From the NCBI RefSeq assembly GCF_017876795.1, contig NZ_JAGIOR010000003.1:248001-312000 (forward strand): 64,000 nucleotides of DNA, read 5' to 3'. Origin of the DNA: Rhizobium leguminosarum. Lineage in GTDB: Bacteria > Pseudomonadota > Alphaproteobacteria > Rhizobiales > Rhizobiaceae. This document shows, piece by piece, positions 48,415-64,000 of the stretch. The first letter of the stretch is position 1. Each line of letters opens with the position of its first letter. A program made the translations under genes and the position numbers. The notes beneath the pieces were generated by a model. The model ran no database searches. It saw nothing but the letters and a program-made list of their open reading frames with translations, and had not been told where the DNA came from.

Positions 48415-50088
48415 TCAGTTCCCGAGAATGCCGGGCATGCGCAGGCCCTTTTCCCGGGCGCAGTCGAGGGCGATGTCGTAGCCGGCATCGGCGTGGCGCA
48501 TGACGCCGGTTGCCGGATCGTTCCAGAGCACGCGCTCAAGCCGCCTTGCCGCATCGTCCGTGCCATCGGCGCAGATGACCATGCCCGAATGCTGGGAGAA
48601 GCCCATGCCGACGCCGCCGCCGTGATGCAGCGATACCCAGGTGGCGCCGGATGCGGTGTTGAGCAGGGCGTTCAACAGCGGCCAGTCGGAGACGGCGTCG
48701 GAGCCGTCCTTCATCGCTTCCGTCTCCCGGTTCGGCGAGGCGACGGAACCCGAATCCAGGTGGTCGCGGCCGATGACGATCGGGGCGGAGAGTTCGCCTG
48801 ATCTCACCATCTCGTTGAAGGCGAGGCCAAGCTTGTGGCGGTCGCCAAGGCCCACCCAGCAGATGCGCGCCGGCAGACCCTGGAAGGCGATGCGCTCCCT
48901 GGCCATATCCAGCCAATGGTGCAGATGCTTGTTGTCTGGCAGCAATTCCTTCACCTTGGCATCGGTCTTGTAGATATCCTCCGGGTCGCCGGAAAGGGCT
49001 GCCCAGCGGAAGGGGCCGATGCCGCGGCAAAACAGCGGGCGGATATAGGCCGGCACGAAGCCAGGGAAGGCGAAGGCGTTTTCGAGGCCTTCTTCCTTGG
49101 CGACCTGGCGGATATTGTTGCCGTAATCGAGCGTCGGAATACCGGCGTCCCAGAAAGCGATCATCGCTTCGACATGCTCGCGCATCGAGGCGCGCGCCGC
49201 TTTTTCCACTGCCTTCGGATCGCTCTCGCGCTTGGCCTTCCACTCTGCCATCGTCCAGCCCTTCGGCAGGTAGCCGTTGATCGGGTCGTGCGCCGAGGTC
49301 TGGTCGGTGACCATGTCGGGGCGGATACCGCGGCGGACCATTTCCGGCAGGATTTCGGCGGCATTGCCGAGCAGGCCGACGGACTTGGCTTCGCCGGCCT
49401 TGGTCCAGCGGTCGATCATCTCGAGCGCTTCGTCGAGCGTCTCGGCCTTGGCGTCGACATAGCGGGTGCGCAGCCGGAAATCGATCGAATCCGGATTGCA
49501 TTCGACGGCGAGGCAGCAGGCGCCGGCCATGACGGCGGCGAGCGGCTGGGCGCTGCCCATGCCGCCGAGGCCGCCGGTTAGGATCCATTTGCCCTTGAGA
49601 TTGCCGCCGTAATGCTGACGGCCTGCCTCGACGAAGGTCTCGTAGGTGCCCTGCACGATGCCCTGCGTGCCGATATAGATCCACGAGCCGGCCGTCATCT
49701 GGCCGTACATGGCAAGGCCCTTCTTATCCAGCTCGTTGAAGTGGTCCCAGGTCGCCCAATGCGGCACCAGGTTGGAATTGGCGATCAACACCCGCGGCGC
49801 ATCCTTGTGGGTGCGGAAGACGCCGACCGGCTTGCCGGATTGGACGAGCAGCGTTTCTTCTTCCGTCAGCGTCTTCAGTGTCGCGACGATGCGGTCGAAA
49901 TCCTCCCAGGTGCGGGTGGCGCGGCCGATACCGCCGTAAACGACAAGTTCGTTCGGATTTTCGGCGACGTCGGGATCGAGATTGTTCATCAGCATGCGCA
50001 GCGGCGCTTCGGTCATCCAGCTCTTGGCATTGAGATCATTGCCGCGGGGCGCGCGGATTTCGCGGATATTGTGGCGTGAATTGGTCAT
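48415..50088 (-). CDS. hutU: Urocanate hydratase
   Basis: A 557-residue NAD-dependent urocanase that converts urocanate to 4-imidazolone-5-propionate. Characteristic stretches are [30 protein letters not shown], the NAD-site [16 protein letters not shown] and the C-terminal [23 protein letters not shown], including the conserved histidines and glycines. The length is standard. It belongs to the leftward hut operon, 24 bases after hutG. Confidence 0.96.
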
Positions 50089-50112: not shown

Positions 50113-50916
50113 TTATCGTTTCAGACCTGGCGCAATCTGTTCGATGCGCACCAGAATGTTTTTGAGATGGACGCGAAGTCTGTCCGCCCTCGCGGTGTCG
50201 TAGGCAAAGGGCGGCGTCTCGGTCTGCAGATGCGTCGACTGCGCAAGCTCCATCTGGATCGCGTGGACGCCGGTCTCGGGCCGGCCGTAATGGCGGGTCG
50301 TCCAGCCGCCCTTGAAGCGACCGTTGAGCACACTGTCATAACCTTCTGCGGCTTCGACGACGGTGAGCGTCGCTTGCTCGATGGCGCCGTCGCAGGTTTT
50401 GCCCATATCGGTGCCGATATTGAAATCCGGCAGCTTGCCTTCGAACAGGAAGGGGATGTGAGAGCGGATCGAATGGCAGTCGTAAAGGATCGCCACGCCA
50501 TGGATTGCCCTGACGCGCTCGATCTCGGCGGCAAGGGCGGCGTGATAGGGCGCGTGAAAATCCCGCAGCCGCGCGGCAATGTCAGCCTCGTCAGGCGCCT
50601 GCCCATCCTTCCAGATCGCCTTACCGTCGAAGTCCGTTTCCGGGACGAGGCCGGTGGTGTTCTGGCCGGGATAAAGGCTGACGCCCTGCGGATCGCGATT
50701 GGCGTCGATCACATAGCGGTGGAAGGTGGCGCGCACCACCGTCACATTGTCGAGCAGGCCGTCATAGAGCTGGTGGATGTGCCAGTCGGTATCGGCCAGA
50801 ATCCTGCCATTGTCGTTGAGACGGTCGGCAATCTCCGCCGGCACCTCGGTGCCGGTGTGGGGGAAGGCGAGGATGACGGGGGAGGCGCCCTGACGGATTT
50901 CGGTTGGTGCGGTCAT
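50113..50916 (-). CDS. hutG: N-formylglutamate deformylase
   Basis: A 267-residue N-formylglutamate amidohydrolase: PVILAFPHTGTEVPAEI, LADTDWHIHQLYD, RYVIDANRDPQG and ILYDCHSIRSHIP carry the metal-site histidines and aspartates. It hydrolyses N-formylglutamate to glutamate and formate, the last step of the five-step route, in agreement with the presence of hutF. ATG 50916 is used; GGAG lies 10 bases upstream. Confidence 0.93.
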   Translation of the reverse strand: MTAPTEIRQGASPVILAFPHTGTEVPAEIADRLNDNGRILADTDWHIHQLYDGLLDNVTVVRATFHRYVIDANRDPQGVSLYPGQNTTGLVPETDFDGKAIWKDGQAPDEADIAARLRDFHAPYHAALAAEIERVRAIHGVAILYDCHSIRSHIPFLFEGKLPDFNIGTDMGKTCDGAIEQATLTVVEAAEGYDSVLNGRFKGGWTTRHYGRPETGVHAIQMELAQSTHLQTETPPFAYDTARADRLRVHLKNILVRIEQIAPGLKR

Positions 50917-50983
50917 GGGCAAAGCGCTCCACCGTTTGGGTTCCGGCAGGGCAGAGGGGGTACCAAGTGCACCTCCATCACGA

Positions 50984-52519
50984 TCAACCCTCCAAAACCG
51001 GCAAGATGCCCGATGAAACAGCGGCGTTCAGCGCACCCGTCGCCACCAGTTCGGCGGCGGCGGCGAGGTCGCCCGCCATGTAGCGGTCGGTATCGAGGGT
51101 CGAAACCTTGCTACGGATCGCGGTGATCGCCTTCAAAAGCTCCGGGCTTGTCGACAGCGGCGCACGCAGTTCGACGCCTTGGGCGGCGGTCAGCGCCTCG
51201 ATGCCGATGATGGCGAACAGGTTCTCGGTCATCCCAAGCAGGCGGCGGGCGCCGTGGCAGGCCATGGAGACATGGTCTTCCTGGTTGGCTGAGGTCGGGG
51301 TCGAATCGACCGAGGCCGGATGCGACATCTGCTTGTTCTCGGACATCAGCGCCGCCGAGGTGACCTCGGCGATCATCAGGCCGGAATTCAAGCCCGGCTT
51401 CTTGGCGAGAAAGGCCGGCAGGCCGTAGGAAAGGGTGGGATCGACCAGCAGCGCGATGCGGCGCTGCGAAATCGCGCCGATCTCGCAGACGGCAAGCGCG
51501 ATCTGGTCGGCGGCGAAGGCGACGGGTTCGGCGTGAAAATTGCCGCCGGAGACGACGGAATTGTCAGACAGCACCAGCGGATTGTCGGTGACCGCGTTGG
51601 CCTCGATCTCAAGGGTGTGGGCCACCGAGCGCAGCAAGTCGAGGCAAGCGCCGTCGACCTGCGGCTGGCAGCGGATGCAATAGGGATCCTGCACGCGCTC
51701 GTCGCCCTCGATATGGCTCTGGCGAATGACGGATTGATCTAGCAGGGCCCGCAGGGCGGATGCCGTGTCGATCTGGCCCTTGTGGCCGCGCAACGTGTGA
51801 ATATCCGGATGGAAGGGCGCCGAAGAGCCCATGGCGGCATCGGTCGACATGGCGCCGGTGATCAGCGCCGATTGCCCGGCACGGTGGGCGCGGAAGAGAC
51901 CGGCAAGCGCCAGTGCCGTCGAGGTCTGGGTGCCGTTGATCAGCGCCAGGCCCTCCTTGGCAGCGAGCACCACCGGTTTGAGGCCTGCCCTTTCGAGAGC
52001 TTCAGCGCCCGAGAGACGTTCGCCGGCGAAGAAGGCTTCGGCTTCGCCCATCATCACCGCGGCCATATGGGCGAGCGGGGCAAGATCACCGGAGGCGCCG
52101 ACCGAGCCCTTTTCCGGGATCAGCGGAATGACGCCCTTTTCCAGCATGCCTTCGATCAGCCGCACCAGCTCCAGCCGCACGCCGGAGGCGCCGCGCCCGA
52201 GCGAGACCAGTTTCAGCGCCATGATCAGCCGGACGATATTTTCAGGTAGCGGCGCGCCGACGCCGCAGCAATGCGACAAGATGAGATTGCGCTGCAGGGT
52301 AGCGACATCGGCACTGTCGATCTTGATCGAGGCGAGTTTGCCGAAGCCGGTATTGATGCCGTAGACGGGCGCATTGCCGGCGGCGATCTCGGCGATCCGG
52401 GCGGCGGCCTTGGCGATGCCGGCATCGAAGGCGGGATCGAGCCTTGCCGGCACGCCTGTCCAGTAGATGATTTCGAGGTCCTTGAGTGAGACGGAGCCCG
52501 GATGGAGCGTGATGGTCAT
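50984..52519 (-). CDS. hutH: Histidine ammonia-lyase
   Basis: A 511-residue enzyme that eliminates ammonia from histidine to form urocanate. The MIO prosthetic group forms autocatalytically from Ala142-Ser143-Gly144 in [12 protein letters not shown]. Tyr53 in [15 protein letters not shown] and [10 protein letters not shown] complete the active site. Its start overlaps the hutI stop by 4 bases. A divergent paralogue lacking the MIO triad is encoded at 60283. Confidence 0.96.
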
Positions 52520-53778
52520 CGACCGTTCCTTTCGCCCTTGAAGACGCGTGCGTGAAGCGGGTTGAAGCCGATGCGGTAGACGAGCTCGGCGAGGCTCTCG
52601 ATATTCCAGACGGCAAAATCGGCCGATTTGCCGGGCTCAAGCGTTCCGGTCTCGCCGATGAGGCCGAGCGCGCGCGCACCTTCGCGGGTGGCCCCGGCGA
52701 TGCATTCCTCGACGGTAAGGGCGAAAAGCGTCGCCGACATGTTCATGGTCAGCAGCATCGAGGTGAGCGGCGAGGTGCCGGGATTGCAATCGGTGGCGAT
52801 CGCGATCGGCACGCCGGCCCGGCGCAGCGCCTCCACCGGCGGCTTCTGCTTTTCATGGATGGCGTAGAAGGCGCCGGGCAGAAGCACGGCGACGGTGCCG
52901 GCAGCGGCCATCGCGGCAACACCTTCGTCGTCGAGATATTCCAGATGATCGGCCGAAAGCGCGCCGTATGACGCGGCGAGCCTGGCGCCGCCGAGGTTGG
53001 AAAGCTGCTCGGCATGCAGCTTGACCGGCAGTCCAAGCGCCTTCGCCTTGTCGAAGACGCGGGCGATCTCGGCCGTTGAAAAGGCAATCCCCTCGCAGAA
53101 GCCGTCGACGGCATCGGCAAGGCCGAGATTATACATGTCGTCGAGGCCAGGCAGCACGACCTCATCGAGGTAATCGCCGTTGCGGCCCTTGTATTCCACC
53201 GGCGTCGCATGGGCGCCGAGATAGCTGGTGGCGACGCGGACCGGTCTCAGATGGCCGAGCAGGCGGGCGCTCTGCAGCATCTTCACTTCGCCGGATCGGT
53301 TCAGCCCGTAGCCGGATTTGATCTCGATCGTCGTCACGCCTTCGGCAAGCAGCGTGTCGAGCCGCGGCAGCGCCTCGCTGACGAGTTCCTCGACCGACAG
53401 CGCATTGGTCGCTTTGACAGAGGAAACGATGCCGCCGCCGGCACGCGCGATCTCCTCATAAGTGGCGCCTGCAAGCCGCATCTCGAACTCGCGGGCGCGG
53501 TTGCCGCCGTGGACGATATGGGTGTGGCAGTCGACGAGGCCTGGAGTCACCCAGCGGCCTTCGAGATCGACGATGTCCGAGCGTTCAATGGCGGAAGCCG
53601 GCAACTCGCTTTCGGCGCCGGCAAAGGTGATGCGGCCGTTTTCGGTGAGCACGGCGCCCTTTTCGACGATGCCGAGCCCGTCCTTTTCAGGCGCAAGCGT
53701 GGCTAGGCGCGCATTGCGCCACAGCACCGGCCTGACGTCGGCGGATGGGGTTTCCTCTGAAAAATTGTTCCCGGTCAT
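52516..53778 (-). CDS. hutI: Imidazolonepropionase
   Basis: A 420-residue amidohydrolase-superfamily enzyme that opens imidazolonepropionate to N-formimino-glutamate. The metal site is [20 protein letters not shown], with [12 protein letters not shown] and KLHAEQLSN. The start was set at MTGNNFSEE; the 50 preceding codons run through the hut promoter region and are not coding. It is the first gene of the leftward operon, divergent from hutF. Confidence 0.95.
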
Positions 53779-53807
53779 CAGCTTTGCGCCTTTCCTTACG
53801 TCGAAAC

Positions 53808-53819
53808 ATGTATATACAT
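53808..53819. promoter_or_regulatory. Candidate HutC operator between hutI and hutF
   Basis: ATGTATATACAT is a perfect 12-bp palindrome 30 bases before the hutI start and 82 bases before hutF. Its core, TGTA-TA-TACA, matches the TGTA-N2-TACA site known for Pseudomonas HutC. It could control both divergent operons. Confidence 0.65.
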
Positions 53820-53900
53820 AATAAGCAGGTGACAAGAGAAATTTTGCGCGCTTTTCTGGAAAAGAAAGAGCAGCGGCGCGGTAAGAGGAGAGGGACGGCC

Positions 53901-55247
53901 ATGACCACACTTCACGCAGGCACGGCACTGACGCCGAAAGGCTGGCAGAAGGACGTGCGGCTGACGCTCGAAGCCGGGCGCATTGCCCGGGTCGAGACCG
54001 GGGTTTCGCCTCAGCCCGGCGATGAACGCCACGCTCTTATCGTTCCGGCCATGGGAAATCTGCACAGCCATGCCTTCCAGCGGGCGATGGCCGGTCTTGC
54101 GGAAGTGCGCGGCCCGGCCAATGACAGCTTCTGGAGCTGGCGCACCGTCATGTACAAGTTCGCCCTGGCGATGACGCCTGAACATGTCGAGGCGGTAGCC
54201 GCCAAGCTCTATGTGGAAATGCTGGAGGCAGGCTTTTCCCGGGTCGGCGAATTCCATTATCTCCACCATGACAGGGATGGCGGCACTTACGCCAATATCG
54301 CCGAGCTTGCCGAACGCATCGGTGCTGCCAGCGAAGAGACCGGCCTCGGCCTGACCTTGCTGCCGGTTTTCTACGCCCATTCCGGCTTCGGCGGTGCTCA
54401 GCCGATCGACGGCCAGCGGCGTTTCATCAATTCTCTCGAAAGCTTCGAAAGGCTGATGGAGGGATGCCGGGCGGTAACCAGCCGGCTCGACGGCGCCGAA
54501 CTCGGCCTGGCGCCGCACAGCCTGCGCGCCGCAACGCCTGAGGAATTGGCGAAGCTTGTGCCGATGGCGGGCGACGGCCCCATCCATATCCATGTCGCCG
54601 AGCAGGTCAAGGAGGTCGAGGATTGCATCGCCTGGTCGGGCGCGCGGCCGGTAGAATGGCTGCTCGATCATGCGCCTGTGGATGAGCGCTGGTGCCTGAT
54701 CCACGCGACGCACATGACCGAAGATGAAACGCGGCGGATGGCGAAAAGCGGGGCGATTGCCGGCCTCTGCCCGATCACCGAAGCCAATCTCGGCGACGGC
54801 GCCTTTGCCGCGCCACTCTTCCTCGAAGAGGGCGGGCGTTACGGCATCGGTTCGGATTCCAATGTGCTGATCTCGGTGCCGGAAGAACTGCGCCAGCTCG
54901 AATATTCGCAGCGCCTGGCGCTGCGCGCCCGCAATGTCGTTGCAGCACCCGGCGGATCGACGGCACTTTGCCTGTTCACTCAGGCGCTTGCCGGCGGCGG
55001 TGCCGCTTTGAAGGCGCCCGCAGGTCTTGTTGAAGGCCATTACGCCGATCTCGTTTCGCTCGATACTGCAGCCATTCCCTACCTTTCCGGCGACCAGATC
55101 CTCGATCACTGGCTGTTTGCCGGCGGCATTTCCATCGATTGCGTCTGGGCGCGCGGCCGCAAGCAGGTGGAGGGCGGTCGCCATCTCAAACGCGACGCCA
55201 TCGACCGGCGTTTCCTGGCTGCGATGGATGAATTGCTGGCTGTCTGA
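53901..55247 (+). CDS. hutF: Formimidoylglutamate deiminase
   Basis: A 448-residue amidohydrolase-superfamily deiminase. [21 protein letters not shown] carries the HxH metal motif, with [14 protein letters not shown] and LIHATHMT for further ligands, and [10 protein letters not shown] with the final aspartate. It converts N-formimino-glutamate to N-formyl-glutamate and ammonia. It starts at 53901 after AAGAGGAG. It is divergent from hutI and followed by hutC. Confidence 0.95.
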
Positions 55248-55386
55248 AAAAGAACTTTTCCTGGCCGGATATTGGATTTAGAGCAATTCCGGCAAAGTGT
55301 TGAGCGGTTTTGCCAGGCAAAGCGCAAAGCGCTTTTGCCGGGAATTGCATAAAAACAAAGAGATAGGGACCAATCGGAACGTGGCG

Positions 55387-56109
55387 ATGAATCAAAGCAG
55401 GGATCCCACCTTGCATCAGCGCATCCTCGGCGACATCGAGGGCCGTATCGTCTCGGGCGAATGGCGGCCGGGACATCGCATCCCCTTCGAGGTCGATCTC
55501 GCCACGCAATACGACGTCTCGCGCATGACGGTGAACAAGGTGCTGACCCAGCTCGCCAAGGCCGGCCTCATCGAGCGCCGCAAGAAATCCGGCAGCTTCG
55601 TCACCCAACCGCAGGCGCAATCGGCCGTCCTCGAAATCCACGACATCAAGGCCGAGGTGCAGTCGCTGAACCTGCCCTATTCCTACGCGGTCTCGAAGAA
55701 GACCAGCCGCAAGGCCAAGGCGGACGACAGCCGCCGGCTGGAACTGCCGGTTGCGTCCTCGGTCGTCGAGGTGGTCTGCATCCACAATGCCGGCGCGCGG
55801 CCCTTCTGCCTGGAGGAGCGGCTGATCAGTCTGGCGACTGTCCCGGAAGCCGCCGCCGCCGATTTTCTGACGATGGCGCCGGGTCCCTGGCTGCTCAACC
55901 AGGTGCCGTGGAGCACGGCCGAACACCGGATCCACGCCGTCTCGGCCAATGCCGACGTGGCCGCGGTGCTCGACATCGCCCGCAACACCGCCTGCCTCGT
56001 CGTCGAACGCCGCACCTGGAGCGGTGCCGGCCCGGTGACGCATGTGCGCTTCACCTATCCCGGCGATCGTCACGCGCTGGTGGCGCGTTTCATCCCGGCA
56101 TCACAATAA
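55387..56109 (+). CDS. hutC: GntR/UTRA regulator, histidine utilisation repressor
   Basis: A 240-residue HutC-type regulator. The winged helix (residues 7-72: TLHQRILGDIEGRIVSGEWRPGHRIPFEVDLATQYDVSRMTVNKVLTQLAKAGLIERR) is followed by a UTRA effector domain that in this family binds urocanate. The sequence resembles the HutC of Brucella and rhizobia. A GTG two codons earlier is an alternative start. It lies downstream of hutF and is convergent with a second HutC-like gene. Confidence 0.85.
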   Translation: MNQSRDPTLHQRILGDIEGRIVSGEWRPGHRIPFEVDLATQYDVSRMTVNKVLTQLAKAGLIERRKKSGSFVTQPQAQSAVLEIHDIKAEVQSLNLPYSYAVSKKTSRKAKADDSRRLELPVASSVVEVVCIHNAGARPFCLEERLISLATVPEAAAADFLTMAPGPWLLNQVPWSTAEHRIHAVSANADVAAVLDIARNTACLVVERRTWSGAGPVTHVRFTYPGDRHALVARFIPASQ

Positions 56110-56142: not shown

Positions 56143-56898
56143 TCAGTCCTCGAACATCTTGCCGCTGCGCGCTTCGAGCCGATAGCGATAGCCGGGATAG
56201 ACGAGGCGGGCGGTCGACACCACCTGTTTTGCCGACCATGTGCGCCGGCGGATCGTCAGGCACGGCTCAGTCTTCAGGATGGTCAGGAGCTTGCATTCCC
56301 AGGCCTGCGGCATCGCCGCCTCGACGACGTGCTCGGAGCCGCTGAGCGGGGCTGCGGCGGTCAGATAGGCATTCGGCGTCAGCGTCGTGAAATCCTGGCC
56401 GAGATATTCGGGAGCAGCCTCCGGATGGACGAAACGGTCCTCGATCTGTACCGGAACGCCGTTTTCGCTGTGGACGATCAGCGAGTGGAAGACCGCCGCA
56501 CCGATCGCGAGCTCCAAAGCGTCGGCGATCTCCGGAGAGGCTGTTTCCTGGGCGAGAACGATGACCGAGGCCTCGTGGACATGGCCGCGTTCGGCGATTT
56601 CTTCGGCGATGTTGCGCACCTCGAACAGTGCCGAATAGCCCTTGCGCTCGGCGACGAAGGAGCCGACACCCTGGATGCGGACGAGTTCGCCTTCATTGGC
56701 AAGTTCGCGCAGCGCCCGGTTGGCGGTCATCTTGCTGACGCCGAGCTCGACGACCAGCTCGTTTTCCGACGGAACGCGGTATTTCGGCGGCCATTCGCCG
56801 CTGTGGATGCGGTCGAGGATCACCTGCTTGACGCCGGCATAAAGCGGCGTGCTATCATTTTCCGCCAACTCGCGCTTCATCTCGCCGGAACGCTTCAT
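56143..56898 (-). CDS. GntR/UTRA regulator, second HutC-like
   Basis: A 251-residue regulator with winged helix STPLYAGVKQVILDRIHSGEWPPKYRVPSENELVVELGVSKMTANRALRELANEG (residues 16-70) and UTRA domain (ALFEVRNIAEEIAERGHVHEASV ... TARLVYPGYRYRLEAR). It resembles Pseudomonas HutC more than the neighbouring hutC does. It is divergent from the transporter and HutH-like operon at 57094, with a perfect 14-bp palindrome between them. It therefore most likely controls that operon, perhaps in response to urocanate or a similar compound. Confidence 0.88.
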   Translation of the reverse strand: MKRSGEMKRELAENDSTPLYAGVKQVILDRIHSGEWPPKYRVPSENELVVELGVSKMTANRALRELANEGELVRIQGVGSFVAERKGYSALFEVRNIAEEIAERGHVHEASVIVLAQETASPEIADALELAIGAAVFHSLIVHSENGVPVQIEDRFVHPEAAPEYLGQDFTTLTPNAYLTAAAPLSGSEHVVEAAMPQAWECKLLTILKTEPCLTIRRRTWSAKQVVSTARLVYPGYRYRLEARSGKMFED

Positions 56899-56970: not shown

Positions 56971-56990
56971 ATATGGTACCATATACAACC
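56971..56990. promoter_or_regulatory. Candidate operator for second HutC-like regulator
   Basis: ATATGGTACCATAT (56971-56984) is a perfect 14-bp palindrome and runs on into ACAACC, giving CCATATACAAC at 56979-56989. It lies 73 bases from the regulator start and 104 bases from the receptor gene start, in AT-rich DNA suited to divergent promoters. Confidence 0.55.
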
Positions 56991-57093: not shown

Positions 57094-57936
57094 ATGAAAT
57101 TCAGCGCAATCCTATTTTGCGGCGTAGCGGCTTTTTCCGCCTTCGCAGCCCCCGCCTTTTCCAAGGATTGGACGAAGGCGACGATCACGCTTGAAGGCGC
57201 CTATGCGCCGTGGAACCTCACCAATGCCGACGGCACGCTCGGCGGCTTCGAGCCGGAGCTTGCCAAGGTGCTGTGCGAACGCGCCAAGATCGAATGCACG
57301 CTGGTCGCTTCCGACTGGGACGGCATGATCCCGGCGCTCAACGCCGGCAAGTTCGATGTCATCATGGATGCGCTGTCGATCACCGAGGAGCGCAAGCAGG
57401 TCATCGACTTCACCATTCCCTATGCTGCCACCCCTGCCGCCTTCGCCACAGCCAAGGACAGCCCGCTCGCCAAGGCCGCCGGCACCGGCGCCACGATCAA
57501 GATGACGCCCGGCCAGACCGGCGTGAAGGAGATCGATGCGCTGAAGGCCGCTTTCAAGGGCAAGACGATCGGCATCCAGGCGGCGACCGTCTACGCCAAG
57601 TTCGTCTATGACAATTTCGGCGACATTGCCGAGATCCGCGAATACAAGACCGGCGCCGACCGTGACCTCGACCTGCAGAACGGCCGTATCGACCTCGGCT
57701 TCGACGACGCCGTCTATTTCGCCAACGCCTTCCAGAGCGCCAATGGCGCACTCGACTTCACCGGCCCGGAAATCGTCGGTTCGATCTGGGGCGAGGGCGA
57801 AGGCCTCGGCGTCCGCAAGGCCGACACCGACCTGCGCGACAAGTTCAGCGAGGCGATCAAGTCCGCGCTCGCCGACGGCACCGTCAAGAACCTCTCGATG
57901 AAGTGGTTCAAGGTCGACGTCAGCCCGCAGCAATAA
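57094..57936 (+). CDS. ABC transporter substrate-binding protein, amino-acid (family 3) type
   Basis: A 280-residue periplasmic receptor with signal peptide MKFSAILFCGVAAFSAFAAPAFS and family 3 pattern ITLEGAYAPWNLTNADGTLGGFEPELAKVLCERAKIECTLVASDWDGMIPALNAGKFDVIMDALSITEERKQVIDFTIPY. This is the lysine/arginine/ornithine/histidine-type receptor group. The operon context (HutC-like regulator, HutH-like lyase) suggests histidine or an imidazole or aromatic amino acid derivative. The start has AGAGGAG upstream. Confidence 0.92.
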   Translation: MKFSAILFCGVAAFSAFAAPAFSKDWTKATITLEGAYAPWNLTNADGTLGGFEPELAKVLCERAKIECTLVASDWDGMIPALNAGKFDVIMDALSITEERKQVIDFTIPYAATPAAFATAKDSPLAKAAGTGATIKMTPGQTGVKEIDALKAAFKGKTIGIQAATVYAKFVYDNFGDIAEIREYKTGADRDLDLQNGRIDLGFDDAVYFANAFQSANGALDFTGPEIVGSIWGEGEGLGVRKADTDLRDKFSEAIKSALADGTVKNLSMKWFKVDVSPQQ

Positions 57937-58041
57937 GCGTTTCGGCCTTCCGGCCGCAAACGCCTGTCTCCGGCTTTATCGCCGGAGACAGCATGCTATT
58001 GTCAATCTGCAAAACACTGCCACGGACGGGGAACGGACGCT

Positions 58042-58767
58042 ATGGCAAGCTTGGAACTGCTCGGCTTCGGCTCGACCGGATGGGGCGCGCTGCTCATTGC
58101 CGCTACCTTGATGACGCTGGCCGTCACGGCGACGGCGCTGGCAATCGGCGCGGTGCTGGGCGCAATCGTCGCGGCGGCGAAACTCTCCGGCAATCTTGCC
58201 CTCGTCACCCTCGGCAACATCTATACGACCGTGTTTCGCGGCGTGCCTGAACTGCTGATCATCTATCTCATCTATTTCGGCGGCTCCTCGGCCGTCACCT
58301 CGATCGGCAAGGCGATGGGTTACGAGGGTTTTCTCGGCCTGCCCTCCTTCATCGCTGGCGCGCTTGCCGTCGGCATCATCTCAGGCTCCTATCAGGCCGA
58401 GGTGTTCCGCGGCGCCTTCCTCGCCATCTCCAAGGGTGAGCTCGAGGCGGCCTCGGCGATCGGCATGCATCGCGGCTTGCGGCTGCGCCGGATCATCATG
58501 CCGCAGGTGCTGCGGCTGGCCATTCCCGGCCTCGGCAATGTCTGGCAGCTGAGCCTCAAGGATTCTGCGCTGATCTCCGTCACCGGCCTCGCCGAACTGA
58601 TGCGCACCAGTCAGGTGGCGGCAGGCTCGACCCGGCAATATTTCCTGTTCTTCATCGCCGGCGGCTGCCTCTATCTCATCCTGACCAGCCTTTCCGACCG
58701 GATCTTCAACGGTGCGGAACGCCGCGCCAACCGCAGCATGCCGGCCGCTGCCATGGGCCAGGCGTAA
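58042..58767 (+). CDS. Amino-acid ABC transporter permease (HisQ type)
   Basis: A 241-residue membrane protein with about five helices. NIYTTVFRGVPELLIIYLIYFGG is the family N-terminal segment and GSYQAEVFRGAFLAISKGELEAASAIGMHRGLRLRRIIMPQVLRLAIPGLGN the EAA loop. It pairs with the next permease and is 105 bases after the receptor gene. Confidence 0.92.
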   Translation: MASLELLGFGSTGWGALLIAATLMTLAVTATALAIGAVLGAIVAAAKLSGNLALVTLGNIYTTVFRGVPELLIIYLIYFGGSSAVTSIGKAMGYEGFLGLPSFIAGALAVGIISGSYQAEVFRGAFLAISKGELEAASAIGMHRGLRLRRIIMPQVLRLAIPGLGNVWQLSLKDSALISVTGLAELMRTSQVAAGSTRQYFLFFIAGGCLYLILTSLSDRIFNGAERRANRSMPAAAMGQA

Positions 58768-58777
58768 GGAGGCGATG

Positions 58778-59482
58778 ATGGATTTCACCTTTCTTGCTTC
58801 GACCATGGTCACCCTGCTCAAGGCCGTGCCGACGACGCTGATCCTGTTTTCGTTGTCGATCTTCCTCGGCGGCCTGCTGGCGCTCGTCATCGTCTCGATG
58901 CGGGTCAGCGGCAACCCTCTGCTTTCGGGTTTCGCCAAGGGTTATATCTTCATCTTCCGCGGCTCGCCGCTGCTGATCCAGATGTTCTTGGTGTTTTACG
59001 GCCTCGGCCAGTTCGGCGTCATCCGCTATTCCTTCCTCTGGCCGTTCCTGCGCGAGCCGATGGTCTGCGCCGTGCTGTCGCTGGCGCTCTGCACCGCCGG
59101 CTACACGGCGGAGATTTTTCGCGGCGGCATCCGCGCCGTTTCGCCGAAGGAGATCGAGGCGGCCCGCTCGATCGGCATGTCCGGCCCCCTGCTGGTTCGC
59201 CGCATCCTGGCGCCGATCGCCTTTCGCCATGCGCTGCCGGCCTATTCCACCGAGATCGTGCTGATGATGAAATCGACGGCGCTCGCAAGCCTCGTCACCG
59301 TCTGGGAGGTCACCGGTGTGGCCCAGCGGCTGATCTCGCAGACCTACCGCACGATGGAGGTCTTTCTCTGCGCGGCGATCATCTATCTCGTTTTGAACTT
59401 CATCATCCTGCAGGGCATGGCCCTGCTCGAATATTCGCTGTCCCGACACCGCCGCGCCGCCCCGCAGGCGCTGAAGGCGTAA
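58778..59482 (+). CDS. Amino-acid ABC transporter permease (HisM type)
   Basis: A 234-residue partner permease: YIFIFRGSPLLIQMFLVFYGLGQFG and the EAA loop TAGYTAEIFRGGIRAVSPKEIEAARSIGMSG. An AAGGAGG site is 5 bases before the second of two ATG codons. It follows the first permease by 10 bases. Confidence 0.92.
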   Translation: MDFTFLASTMVTLLKAVPTTLILFSLSIFLGGLLALVIVSMRVSGNPLLSGFAKGYIFIFRGSPLLIQMFLVFYGLGQFGVIRYSFLWPFLREPMVCAVLSLALCTAGYTAEIFRGGIRAVSPKEIEAARSIGMSGPLLVRRILAPIAFRHALPAYSTEIVLMMKSTALASLVTVWEVTGVAQRLISQTYRTMEVFLCAAIIYLVLNFIILQGMALLEYSLSRHRRAAPQALKA

Positions 59483-59509
59483 GCGGCCTTTGAACCGATT
59501 GGAGCAACC

Positions 59510-60286
59510 ATGCCAGGCGTAACCCGACTTTCGGTCCGCAATATCCGCAAGAGCTTCGGCACGCACGAGGTGCTGCGCGGCATTTCCCTCGATGCTGAGG
59601 ACGGCGATGTGATTTCGCTGCTCGGCGCCTCAGGCTCCGGCAAATCGACCTTTCTGCGCTGCATCAACATGCTCGAGACCGCAAGCGACGGCGAGATCTG
59701 GGTCGATGGCGAGCACATCGAGATGGTGCACAAAAACGGGCGCAGCAAACCGGCAAGCCAGAAGCAGGTGGACCACATCCGCTCGGAACTCGGCATGGTG
59801 TTCCAGTCCTTCAATCTCTGGTCCCATATGACGATCCTGCAGAACGTCATTGAAGGGCCGATCCATGTGCTCAAACGACCGCGTGCCGACTGCATCGCCG
59901 AGGCCGAAGCGCTGCTCGAAAAGGTCGGCATCGCAGACAAGCGCCACGCCTATCCCGCCCATCTCTCCGGCGGTCAACAGCAACGCGCCGCGATCGCCCG
60001 CGCGCTGGCGATGAAGCCGAAGGTGATGCTCTTCGACGAGCCGACCTCGGCGCTTGATCCGGAACTCGTCGGCGAGGTGCTGCGCGTCATGCGCGCGCTT
60101 GCCGAGGAAGGCATGACCATGCTCGTCGTCACCCATGAGATGAGCTTTGCCCGCAATGTTTCCAACCGCGTCGTCTTCATGCGCGAAGGGCTGATCGAAA
60201 GCAGCGGCAAGCCGGACGACATGTTCACCGGCGGCGCCACACCCGCCTTCCGCCAGTTCATCGGCCATTTCGGAAGCGGTCAATGA
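59510..60286 (+). CDS. Amino-acid ABC transporter ATP-binding protein (HisP type)
   Basis: A 258-residue ATPase. Walker A is [13 protein letters not shown], signature [15 protein letters not shown], Walker [17 protein letters not shown] and switch [10 protein letters not shown]. The insert [39 protein letters not shown] is typical of HisP. It overlaps the following lyase-like gene by 4 bases, tying transport to that enzyme. Confidence 0.93.
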
Positions 60287-61776
60287 CCAAGACCATCGAG
60301 ACCCTGCTGACCTGGCGCGATGTCGCCCGTGTCGGGGCAGGGGAGGCGCTGGCGCTGTCGCCCGCCGCTTGGGCGCGTATCGAGCAGGCAAGCCGCATCG
60401 TCGCCAGCATCGTCGAGACCGGCGTGCGCGCCTACGGCGTCAACACCGGCGTCGGGGCGCTGGCGGATATGGTGGTCGATCGGGCCTCCCAGAGCCTTTT
60501 GTCGCGCAGCATCGTGCTCAGCCATGCGTGCGGCGTGGGGCCGTTGCTGGGCGGTCGCGAAGTGCGCGCCATCATCGCCGCTCAGATTGCCAATTTCGCC
60601 CACGGCCATTCCGGCGTACGGCGCGATGTCGTCAAGCATCTCACAGCTATGCTGGAGCATGACTGCATTCCCGACGTGCCGTCCAAGGGCTCCGCCGGTT
60701 ATCTCGTCCACAATGCCCATATTGCGCTTGTTCTGATCGGCGAAGGCAGCGCCACGCTTGCCGGCCGGCGCATGAGCGGCCGCGAGGCGCTGGCGGTGAT
60801 CGGCCTCAAACCGCTGGTGCTCGGCGCCAAGGAGGGCTTGAGCCTCGTCAACGGCACGGCCTGCGCCACGGGCCTGACCGCCACAGCGCTTTCCCGCGCC
60901 GAGCGGCTGCTCGACTGGGCCGATGCCATCGCGGCGCTGACGCTCGAAGCGGCAGGCTGCCAGATTGCCGCCTTCGACGAAGCGGTGCTGGCGCTGCGCC
61001 CATCGGCGGGGATCGAAAAGGTGGGCACGACGCTGCGGGCCCGGCTTTTCGGCAGCGGCCTTGTCGCCGCCGCCTTCGGGCGGCGCACCCAGGATGCGCT
61101 TAGCCTTCGTTCGGTGCCGCATGCGCATGGCGCCGCCCGCGACGTCTTCGACAATTCAGCCCGTATCGTCGATCAGGAACTTGCCTCGGTGACGGACAAT
61201 CCCGCCGTCTCCGGCACGCCCGAACATCCGATCGTCTCCTCCGAGGCGCATGCGGTCGCCCCGGCGCTCGGGCAGGCGGCCGATAGCCTCGCTATTGCGC
61301 TGGCGCAGATCGGCGCGATCAGCGAACGGCGCATGGACCGGCTGGTCAATCCGCTGGTGAGCGGCCTGCCGCCGTTTTTGGCGAGTGACGCCGGCAGCCA
61401 TTCCGGCTTCATGATCGCCCAATATACCGCAGCCGCACTCAGCAACGACAACCGCCGGCTTGCCGCCCCTGCGGCCATGGATGGCGGCCTGACCTCCGGC
61501 CTGCAGGAAGATTTCCTCGCCCATCCCACAGCTGCCGCCGGCAAGCTGCTCACGGTCATCGACAATGCCGAATATATCCTGGCGATCGAGCTGATGGCCG
61601 CTGCCCAGGCGCATGATTTTCTGGCAGCGACGGCGCCGCGGGCGGCGGGCACGGATCTTCTCTATCAGGCCGTGCGCCAGCGTATCTCCCATTATGGCGA
61701 CGAACGGCCGCTAAACGGCGATATCGAGGCCGTGCGCAACCTGATCCGCGAGACCGCGCCGCCGTCGATCGGCTGA
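60283..61776 (+). CDS. HutH/PAL-superfamily protein lacking the MIO-forming Ala-Ser-Gly
   Basis: A 497-residue homologue of the histidine ammonia-lyase at 50984, alignable along its length. [12 protein letters not shown] (from residue 51), [21 protein letters not shown] and GLQEDFLAH match the enzyme. At the MIO site HutH has [15 protein letters not shown], whereas this protein has [12 protein letters not shown] (residues 135-146), three residues shorter and without Ala-Ser-Gly. It therefore cannot form MIO in the known way, though other active-site segments persist. It is translationally coupled to an amino-acid importer. It may use another mechanism, catalyse a different reaction, or have lost activity. 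Confidence 0.85.
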
Positions 61777-63360: not shown

Positions 63361-64000
63361 TTAGGTGCGCGGCTTCAGATTTTCCGGGTCATAGATCGGC
63401 TTGTAGCCGACGCCGACGATCTCCATCGGATAACTCTCGGCAAAATACTCGACATTCAGCTTGCGTCCGACCTGGCAATGCGACCAGGGCAAATAGGCCA
63501 GAGCAATGTTCTTGCCGACCGTGGGGCCGTACGCGATCGAGGTCGTGTAGGAGCGGCGGCCGAGCTCGTCGACCAGGACCTCTCCCGTGGCGGGATCGAC
63601 GACCGGCAGGTTGCCGAGGGGATAACGCTGCACGCCCGATTTGTCGGTATTCTCGGTCATCACAAGCGTGCAGAGCATAGCCGGCTGGTGTTCGCGCGCC
63701 TTGTATTCCAGATGTTTTGCCTTGCCGCGGAAATCGGCTTCCTTGACCTTCGGACGGGCGAGATCGGCTTCGATCAGGTTGTACTGGGTCAGGAGGTCGG
63801 CGTTCTGCAGGCGCAGGCTCTTTTCCATGCGGCGCGAGTTTGCATAGGTTTCTACGCCGAAGGCCATCACACCGGTCGAGCGCAGCGCATCCCAGACGGC
63901 AAGGCCGTCTTCGTATTTCATGTGCAGTTCCCAGCCCTGCTCGCCGACATAGGAGATACGGAAGGCGGTGACAGGCTTACCGGCGATTTCGATCGGCTTG
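63361..64000 (-). CDS. GcvT-domain protein, dimethylglycine/sarcosine dehydrogenase-like (partial, N-terminus off window)
   Basis: The last 213 residues of a protein that continues beyond the right edge. The frame is open from 64000 (KPIEIAGKPVTAFRISYVGEQGWELH) to the stop at 63361. GEQGWELHM...GLAVWDALRSTGVMAFGVETYANSRRMEKSLR and the C-terminal beta barrel (SYTTSIAYGPTVGKNIALAYLP) are those of the folate-binding GcvT domain. The size and sequence suggest a two-domain FAD-dependent dimethylglycine or sarcosine dehydrogenase more than the aminomethyltransferase itself; the FAD domain would lie outside the window. Confidence 0.8.
   Translation of the reverse strand, partial: KPIEIAGKPVTAFRISYVGEQGWELHMKYEDGLAVWDALRSTGVMAFGVETYANSRRMEKSLRLQNADLLTQYNLIEADLARPKVKEADFRGKAKHLEYKAREHQPAMLCTLVMTENTDKSGVQRYPLGNLPVVDPATGEVLVDELGRRSYTTSIAYGPTVGKNIALAYLPWSHCQVGRKLNVEYFAESYPMEIVGVGYKPIYDPENLKPRT

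Follow-up and report, generated by a model that had tools for sequence, protein, structure and literature searches.

The closest described system is ergothionase, an enzyme described as lacking the 4-methylideneimidazole-5-one (MIO) group and as releasing trimethylamine from a histidine betaine (PMC13405746, in the portion available); an account of MIO-enzyme evolution (PMC9002059) does not mention it in the sections available. Several HutH paralogues have already been reported within the HutC regulons of Rhizobiales (PMC5343134, excerpt), and lyase-type paralogues were thus noticed earlier in these regulons in a passage that is silent on MIO. Here we analyze one such paralogue, in a 64,000-nt stretch of Rhizobium leguminosarum DNA (contig NZ_JAGIOR010000003.1, positions 248,001 to 312,000), below called the window. 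The gene closes a run of binding protein, permease, permease, ATPase and lyase (57094–61776) downstream of a hut cluster, and its product is predicted to be an MIO-free lyase that releases trimethylamine from hercynine.

The open reading frame (ORF) starts with ATG, encodes 497 amino acids and is uninterrupted to its stop. The product matches PF00221, the HAL/PAL/TAL superfamily, over its full length above the curated cut-off, and its AlphaFold2 model has a predicted local distance difference test score (pLDDT) of 91.9 and a predicted template modelling score (pTM) of 0.92. With the hutH equivalog TIGR01225 it reaches 453 bits, under the cut-off that the window's own HutH passes. A preliminary description, made by comparison with the HutH at 50984, had claimed that a three-residue deletion removes Ala-Ser-Gly, that YGVNTG, SHACGVG and QED are retained in an intact frame, and that selection seems to have kept the protein. 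The net deletion is there, with a gap whose placement varies by alignment, and the three motifs are all present. The change is also wider than the triad: the residues that follow it are altered, as are the pocket positions corresponding to Tyr280 and Phe329 of histidine ammonia-lyase (HAL).

A genome scan confirmed 552 relatives, and counts of loci refer to the best 80 of these, orthologous loci at 69–93% identity; 9 of the 80 meet a contig end early, so some missing neighbours are no real test. All 80 have GS(A/V)GYL with the triad absent, while the HutH-type matches in the same loci keep GASGD (28/28). The triad has therefore not been lost by chance, and a pseudogene or sequencing error is ruled out. 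The first protein search passed 7,543 proteins, and GS(A/V)GYL stands in all of the best 120, which were listed; the closest among these, at 96%, is from Rhizobium sp. NZLR5. When a Priestia megaterium relative (40% identity) served as query, more GS.GYL proteins appeared, many from Bacillota, among ordinary MIO enzymes, and the GS.GYL/I type was found in Burkholderia as well as in Bacillota. MIO is almost certainly absent from the window lyase.

HAL active sites are made up from more than one subunit. We aligned 502 distinct HAL-family sequences, a set gathered by similarity from few queries, with many near copies and neither random nor independent, and typed them by the motif at the MIO site. 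Type A carries MIO (ASG, or SSG in 10; n = 116), type B has GS.GYL/I (n = 263), and type C has a one-residue deletion (AAD, EGD, CAD etc.; n = 123) and includes the Treponema ergothionase. The position of HAL Tyr280 is Tyr in 116/116 of type A, Leu in 262 and Ile in 1 of type B, and Leu in 123/123 of type C. At the Phe329 position, Phe is found in all 116 of type A and in 122 of type C; the type B assignment depends on the alignment (Ala 218, Cys 34, Pro 11), and in the window lyase the partner is Ala324 by one alignment and His323 by another. Tyr53, His83, Asn195, Gln277 and Arg283 of HAL are retained in 263/263 type B sequences and Glu414 in 262, the remaining one having a gap. Asn195 and His83 are conserved throughout types A and B; type C has lost Asn195 and has His83 in only 2 of 123. 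Y52, H82, N194 and E411 are reported essential in GkHAL, and the F329G variant of Pseudomonas HAL reportedly makes no MIO (PMC11432326, excerpt). Type B thus retains the equivalents of the GkHAL-essential four without the phenylalanine. Judged by sequence, the type B site looks like a HAL site from which the electrophile and its contacts have been taken away and in which the substrate-holding groups were kept.

The function can be narrowed because ergothionase is an MIO-free relative and because the operons contain HutU, HutF, HutC and sometimes betaine-type importers. On chemical grounds, a lyase without MIO must have a leaving group better than ammonia. Since this genome has an ergothioneine cluster with its own lyase elsewhere, and since the related cassette on plasmid pAt of Agrobacterium tumefaciens Ach5 is of the thio type, hercynine remains the simplest candidate for a substrate that yields urocanate. 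We infer that the window lyase is an MIO-free trimethylamine-lyase converting hercynine to urocanate, with a probability of roughly 0.6; the broader statement, that it acts as some histidine-betaine trimethylamine-lyase, is likely. Among the options offered by the preliminary description, an MIO-independent lyase is thus the best supported, whereas an isomerase, a new activity or a regulatory protein find no support because the HAL residues are kept across type B.

In the proposed mechanism, Tyr51, His81, Asn190, Gln270, Arg276 and Glu409 would bind the imidazole and carboxylate groups and provide the base, as in HAL. Because trimethylammonium is already a good leaving group, the substrate-activating electrophile of HAL would be unnecessary, and the room freed by MIO, Tyr280 (Leu273 here) and Phe329 may have been refitted, with the invariant Tyr140, for trimethylammonium. 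Urocanate would pass to HutU, HutI, HutF and HutG, and trimethylamine to a trimethylamine monooxygenase and a trimethylamine N-oxide (TMAO) demethylase encoded elsewhere in the genome. HutC responds to urocanate, and the adjoining HutC-type regulator may do the same.

The distribution of HutU favours a product that HutU accepts. In a sample of 249 genomes of the order, 15 carry the lyase (a match with E no higher than 1e-110; 11 of the 15 were inspected for the GYL/GYI motif). Every carrier has a HutU match of at least 950 bits, compared with 110 of the 234 other genomes having any HutU match above cut-off, thio-type and partial ones included (Fisher p 2e-5 per genome, 0.016 by genus), and the two genes lie at most 14 kb apart in 9/15 carriers. 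Across several families the lyase operon itself includes HutU and HutF (L124, L129–L132, L136–L138). At L131 the lyase is followed by HutI and a normal HutH, and at L123 ProXWV replaces the importer while HutU and HutC are retained.

The wider gene order recurs as well. A HutC-type gene lies at most 7 kb from the lyase in 64 of the 80 loci. HutC and a histidine-type ATP-binding cassette (ABC) importer occur together in 52, of which 25 also have hut enzymes and 27 do not; HutC is accompanied by an OpuAC importer in 9 and by hut enzymes only in 3, and importer only, importer with hut genes, and hut genes only account for one locus each. The importer is of the amino-acid type in 54/80 loci and in the window, and of the betaine type in 9/80 loci, in G260 and in Ach5. 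For trimethylamine, the genome has a monooxygenase, a TMAO demethylase and a TMAO permease, all above cut-offs and within ~12 kb on its contig C2 (L141:4935–17305), and it can probably use this compound. A FAD/GcvT oxidoreductase whose gene end lies in the window (63361–64000, minus strand) was considered as a TMAO demethylase and rejected, its R. etli counterpart, with DAO and GCV_T domains, scoring 97 vs 1100 bits. EgtD, looked for as a source of endogenous hercynine, had no match in the genome at E 0.001. A literature search returned no paper joining hercynine, urocanate and trimethylamine; the names hercynine degradation and hercynine lyase were unmatched, and matches came through 'trimethylhistidine' alone.

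Several observations weigh against hercynine cleavage by this lyase. The corresponding Asp in HisJ binds the alpha-ammonium, and the window's binding protein retains this invariant Asp together with the histidine-type SIT..R stretch; the window importer therefore does not itself indicate a betaine, and we dropped it as proof of a betaine substrate, the binding protein being histidine- or opine-like. HutXYZ is of the OpuAC kind. It is given as a system for histidine uptake in some Rhizobiales (PMC5343134, excerpt), so an OpuAC-type importer next to hut genes is no sure sign of a betaine. In 13/80 loci the flanks examined hold no hut genes, HutC or either importer. Trimethylamine monooxygenase is present in just 7/15 carriers, against 43/234 other genomes (p 0.015), so the link to trimethylamine oxidation is not general. 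The MIO-less Priestia relative clears the hutH equivalog cut-off with 592 bits, so the TIGR01225 score does not by itself mark MIO or separate the types. Type B is 39% identical to HutH vs 30% to ergothionase, and is thus not a relative of ergothionase in particular. Finally, the literature search found no type B enzyme with a reported function.

The alternative that fares best, which we still consider unlikely, is that the enzyme is an MIO-free betaine lyase whose substrate is a trimethylated histidine other than hercynine, for instance ergothioneine or S-methyl-ergothioneine. It draws on the 53%-identical pAt relative, which accompanies an S-methyl-thiourocanate hydratase and ErtD. However, the window has a true HutU, which scores too low for either thiourocanate-hydratase model. 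Apart from it, the one urocanase-family gene found in the genome encodes the thiourocanate hydratase of a separate cluster on the chromosome, which has a lyase of its own, and the linkage to HutU persists over several families. Somewhat less likely still, the lyase might act on a different derivative of histidine, or on histidine itself without recourse to MIO, with the importer supplying that compound. The amino-acid/opine type of the importer, the retained HAL residues that hold imidazole and carboxylate, and the HutU linkage all fit this, but ammonia is by established chemistry a poor leaving group from histidine without MIO, and an MIO-type HutH is present in the genome and in at least 28/80 loci, which makes a second ordinary histidine lyase superfluous.

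That the protein is a catalytically dead paralogue, kept as a regulator or structural partner of HutH, is very improbable: the cofactor is lost and the gene is located among hut genes, but the other catalytic residues are invariant, one gap apart, in 263 sequences from at least two phyla, and 27/80 loci carry HutC and importer only, with no hut enzymes in the flanks. An ordinary HAL making MIO from another triad, such as Ser137-Ala138-Gly139, is hardly credible and was rejected, since one alignment puts S-A-G on the S-V-G preceding the normal HutH triad and since Phe329, whose replacement in F329G HAL reportedly prevents MIO formation (PMC11432326, excerpt), is lost; we found no point in its favour.

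Trees bear on how MIO was lost. In a quick tree of 71 representatives, type B falls to one side of a branch with an approximate likelihood-ratio (SH-aLRT) support of 98 and type C on another with 100, with long-branch warnings for L083 and ergothionase. A careful tree, from which the trait columns and L083 were left out, keeps type C (100/100). It brings type B together in only 16% of bootstraps, and a joined MIO-less group of B and C is not rejected (approximately unbiased test, p-AU 0.398). Independent loss was therefore not kept as a settled point, although the unlike deletions of B and C point to two losses.

More tentatively, these lyases may form an unrecognised branch of histidine catabolism in rhizobia, other Pseudomonadota and Bacillota, in which MIO-free lyases, at present annotated as a second histidine ammonia-lyase, cleave imported hercynine to urocanate, for the Hut pathway, and trimethylamine, as a source of nitrogen, and in which MIO was lost by another deletion than in ergothionase with convergence on Leu at Tyr280. 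If so, many proteins called histidine ammonia-lyase (at least 120 of this type) do another reaction, and models of histidine use and trimethylamine production are wrong for type B proteins. Hercynine is made by fungi and actinobacteria, and the route would allow soil and plant bacteria to use it. The proposal names a concrete substrate, and the set of MIO, three-residue deletion and one-residue deletion is a natural comparison for dropping an electrophilic cofactor.

The surroundings of the lyase are listed in the table below. Upstream of its operon the hut cluster comprises HutU, HutG, HutH, HutI, HutF and a further HutC-type gene, the names HutI and HutG being presumed from the look of the sequences. 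The preliminary description had placed the lyase with an amino-acid importer, in a four-base overlap with the ATPase gene and under a HutC-like regulator. The importer type and the overlap stand, the binding protein being similar to those for octopine, nopaline and histidine and the overlap being ATGA, and a divergent HutC-type regulator passes TIGR02018. A palindrome, ATATGGTACCATAT, lies between this regulator and the operon. Of the 51 loci that share the regulator/binding-protein layout, 50 have it with at most 2 mismatches (the exception is L065), and of the 29 others none does. A different perfect palindrome, ATGTATATACAT, lies in the hut cluster, and the two, one per HutC-associated region, suggest a different operator for each of the HutC paralogues.

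Features of the window, with positions counted from its first nucleotide.
Feature	Position	Strand	Remarks
MIO-less HAL/PAL-fold lyase, type B (GSAGYL), predicted hercynine trimethylamine-lyase	60283..61776	+	PF00221 464 bits
G136-S-A-G-Y140-L141 codons, site of lost Ala-Ser-Gly	60688..60705	+	Tyr invariant in type B
Leu273 codon, counterpart of HAL Tyr280	61099..61101	+	
HutU urocanase, predicted next step	48415..50088	-	TIGR01228 975 bits, cut-off 375
HutG-type gene (presumed)	50113..50922	-	
HutH, GASGD motif intact	50984..52519	-	TIGR01225 722 bits, cut-off 539
HutI (presumed), ORF as listed	52516..53928	-	True start probably further in
HutF formimidoylglutamate deiminase	53745..55247	+	Listed ORF overlaps hutI; true start probably further in
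Palindrome ATGTATATACAT between hutI and hutF	53808..53819	.	Different candidate operator
Second HutC-type regulator, end of hut cluster	55297..56109	+	TIGR02018 295 bits
HutC-type GntR/UTRA regulator, divergent from operon	56143..56898	-	TIGR02018 295 bits, cut-off 220
Palindrome ATATGGTACCATAT	56971..56984	.	Candidate operator of divergent regulator
Periplasmic substrate-binding protein, family 3 (octopine/nopaline/His type)	57094..57936	+	PF00497; best solved relatives octopine-, nopaline-binding proteins
ABC permease 1, HisQ-like	58042..58767	+	
ABC permease 2, HisM/ArtM-like	58778..59482	+	Listed ORF start 58712; ATG at 58778 preferred
ABC ATPase, HisP-like	59510..60286	+	4-base overlap with lyase start

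Two other groups of relatives were noted. The GYI variants (L125:8161–9684, L126 and L127) lie near a PhyH dioxygenase and near genes that we take to be efflux-type and sigma-factor-like, with no hut genes in the stretch, and may have another function. Another MIO-less HAL relative, on pRL12 of R. ruizarguesonis (L087:6953–9460), has GSIGAAD with Arg in place of His83, and adjoins a HutC gene and an OpuAC binding protein.

Compared with known systems, the window lyase shares with HutH the fold, the length, most active-site residues and the hut setting (36–39% identity), but differs in having no Ala-Ser-Gly, Leu for Tyr280 and no Phe329, and in scoring under the hutH equivalog cut-off. The lyase of Ach5 pAt (L085) is likewise of the GSVGYL type, at 53% identity, and stands in an S-methyl-ergothioneine-type cluster. 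Its neighbours are an S-methyl-thiourocanate hydratase (975.8 bits, cut-off 880), ErtD (783, cut-off 600), an ErtE-like hydrolase (294 vs 520, a fragment at the end of the stretch) and ProXWV, in contrast to the window, and no HutU is found there; the ProXWV–lyase cassette resembles that of L123 (ProV 79%, ProW 81%, ProX 65%). The cluster also holds a molybdenum S/N-oxide reductase of the BisC/TorA family.

The same genome has, on contig C1 (L121:9883–17274), a separate probable ergothioneine-utilisation cluster, with thiourocanate hydratase (1055 bits, cut-off 930), thiohydantoin desulfurase (600, cut-off 440), ErtD (778, cut-off 600) and ErtE (639, cut-off 520). There too an MIO-less lyase feeds a urocanase-family hydratase, but that lyase (L083, GSIGCAD) is of type C, has ergothionase as its closest solved structure and is 25% identical to the window lyase, and the downstream enzymes are thio-specific. 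Unlike ergothionase, the window lyase has no thiourocanate hydratase or desulfurase in its cluster, the thio cluster being on this other contig. With the T. denticola ergothionase (PDB 6s7j/6s7q) it shares the HAL fold, the absence of the MIO triad, Leu at Tyr280, and the retained Tyr53, His83, Gln277, Arg283 and Glu414. The two differ in the deletion, one residue in ergothionase (SSIGEGD) and three in the window lyase (GSAGYL), and in the pocket: ergothionase has Ser at Asn195 and keeps Phe329, and type B has the reverse.
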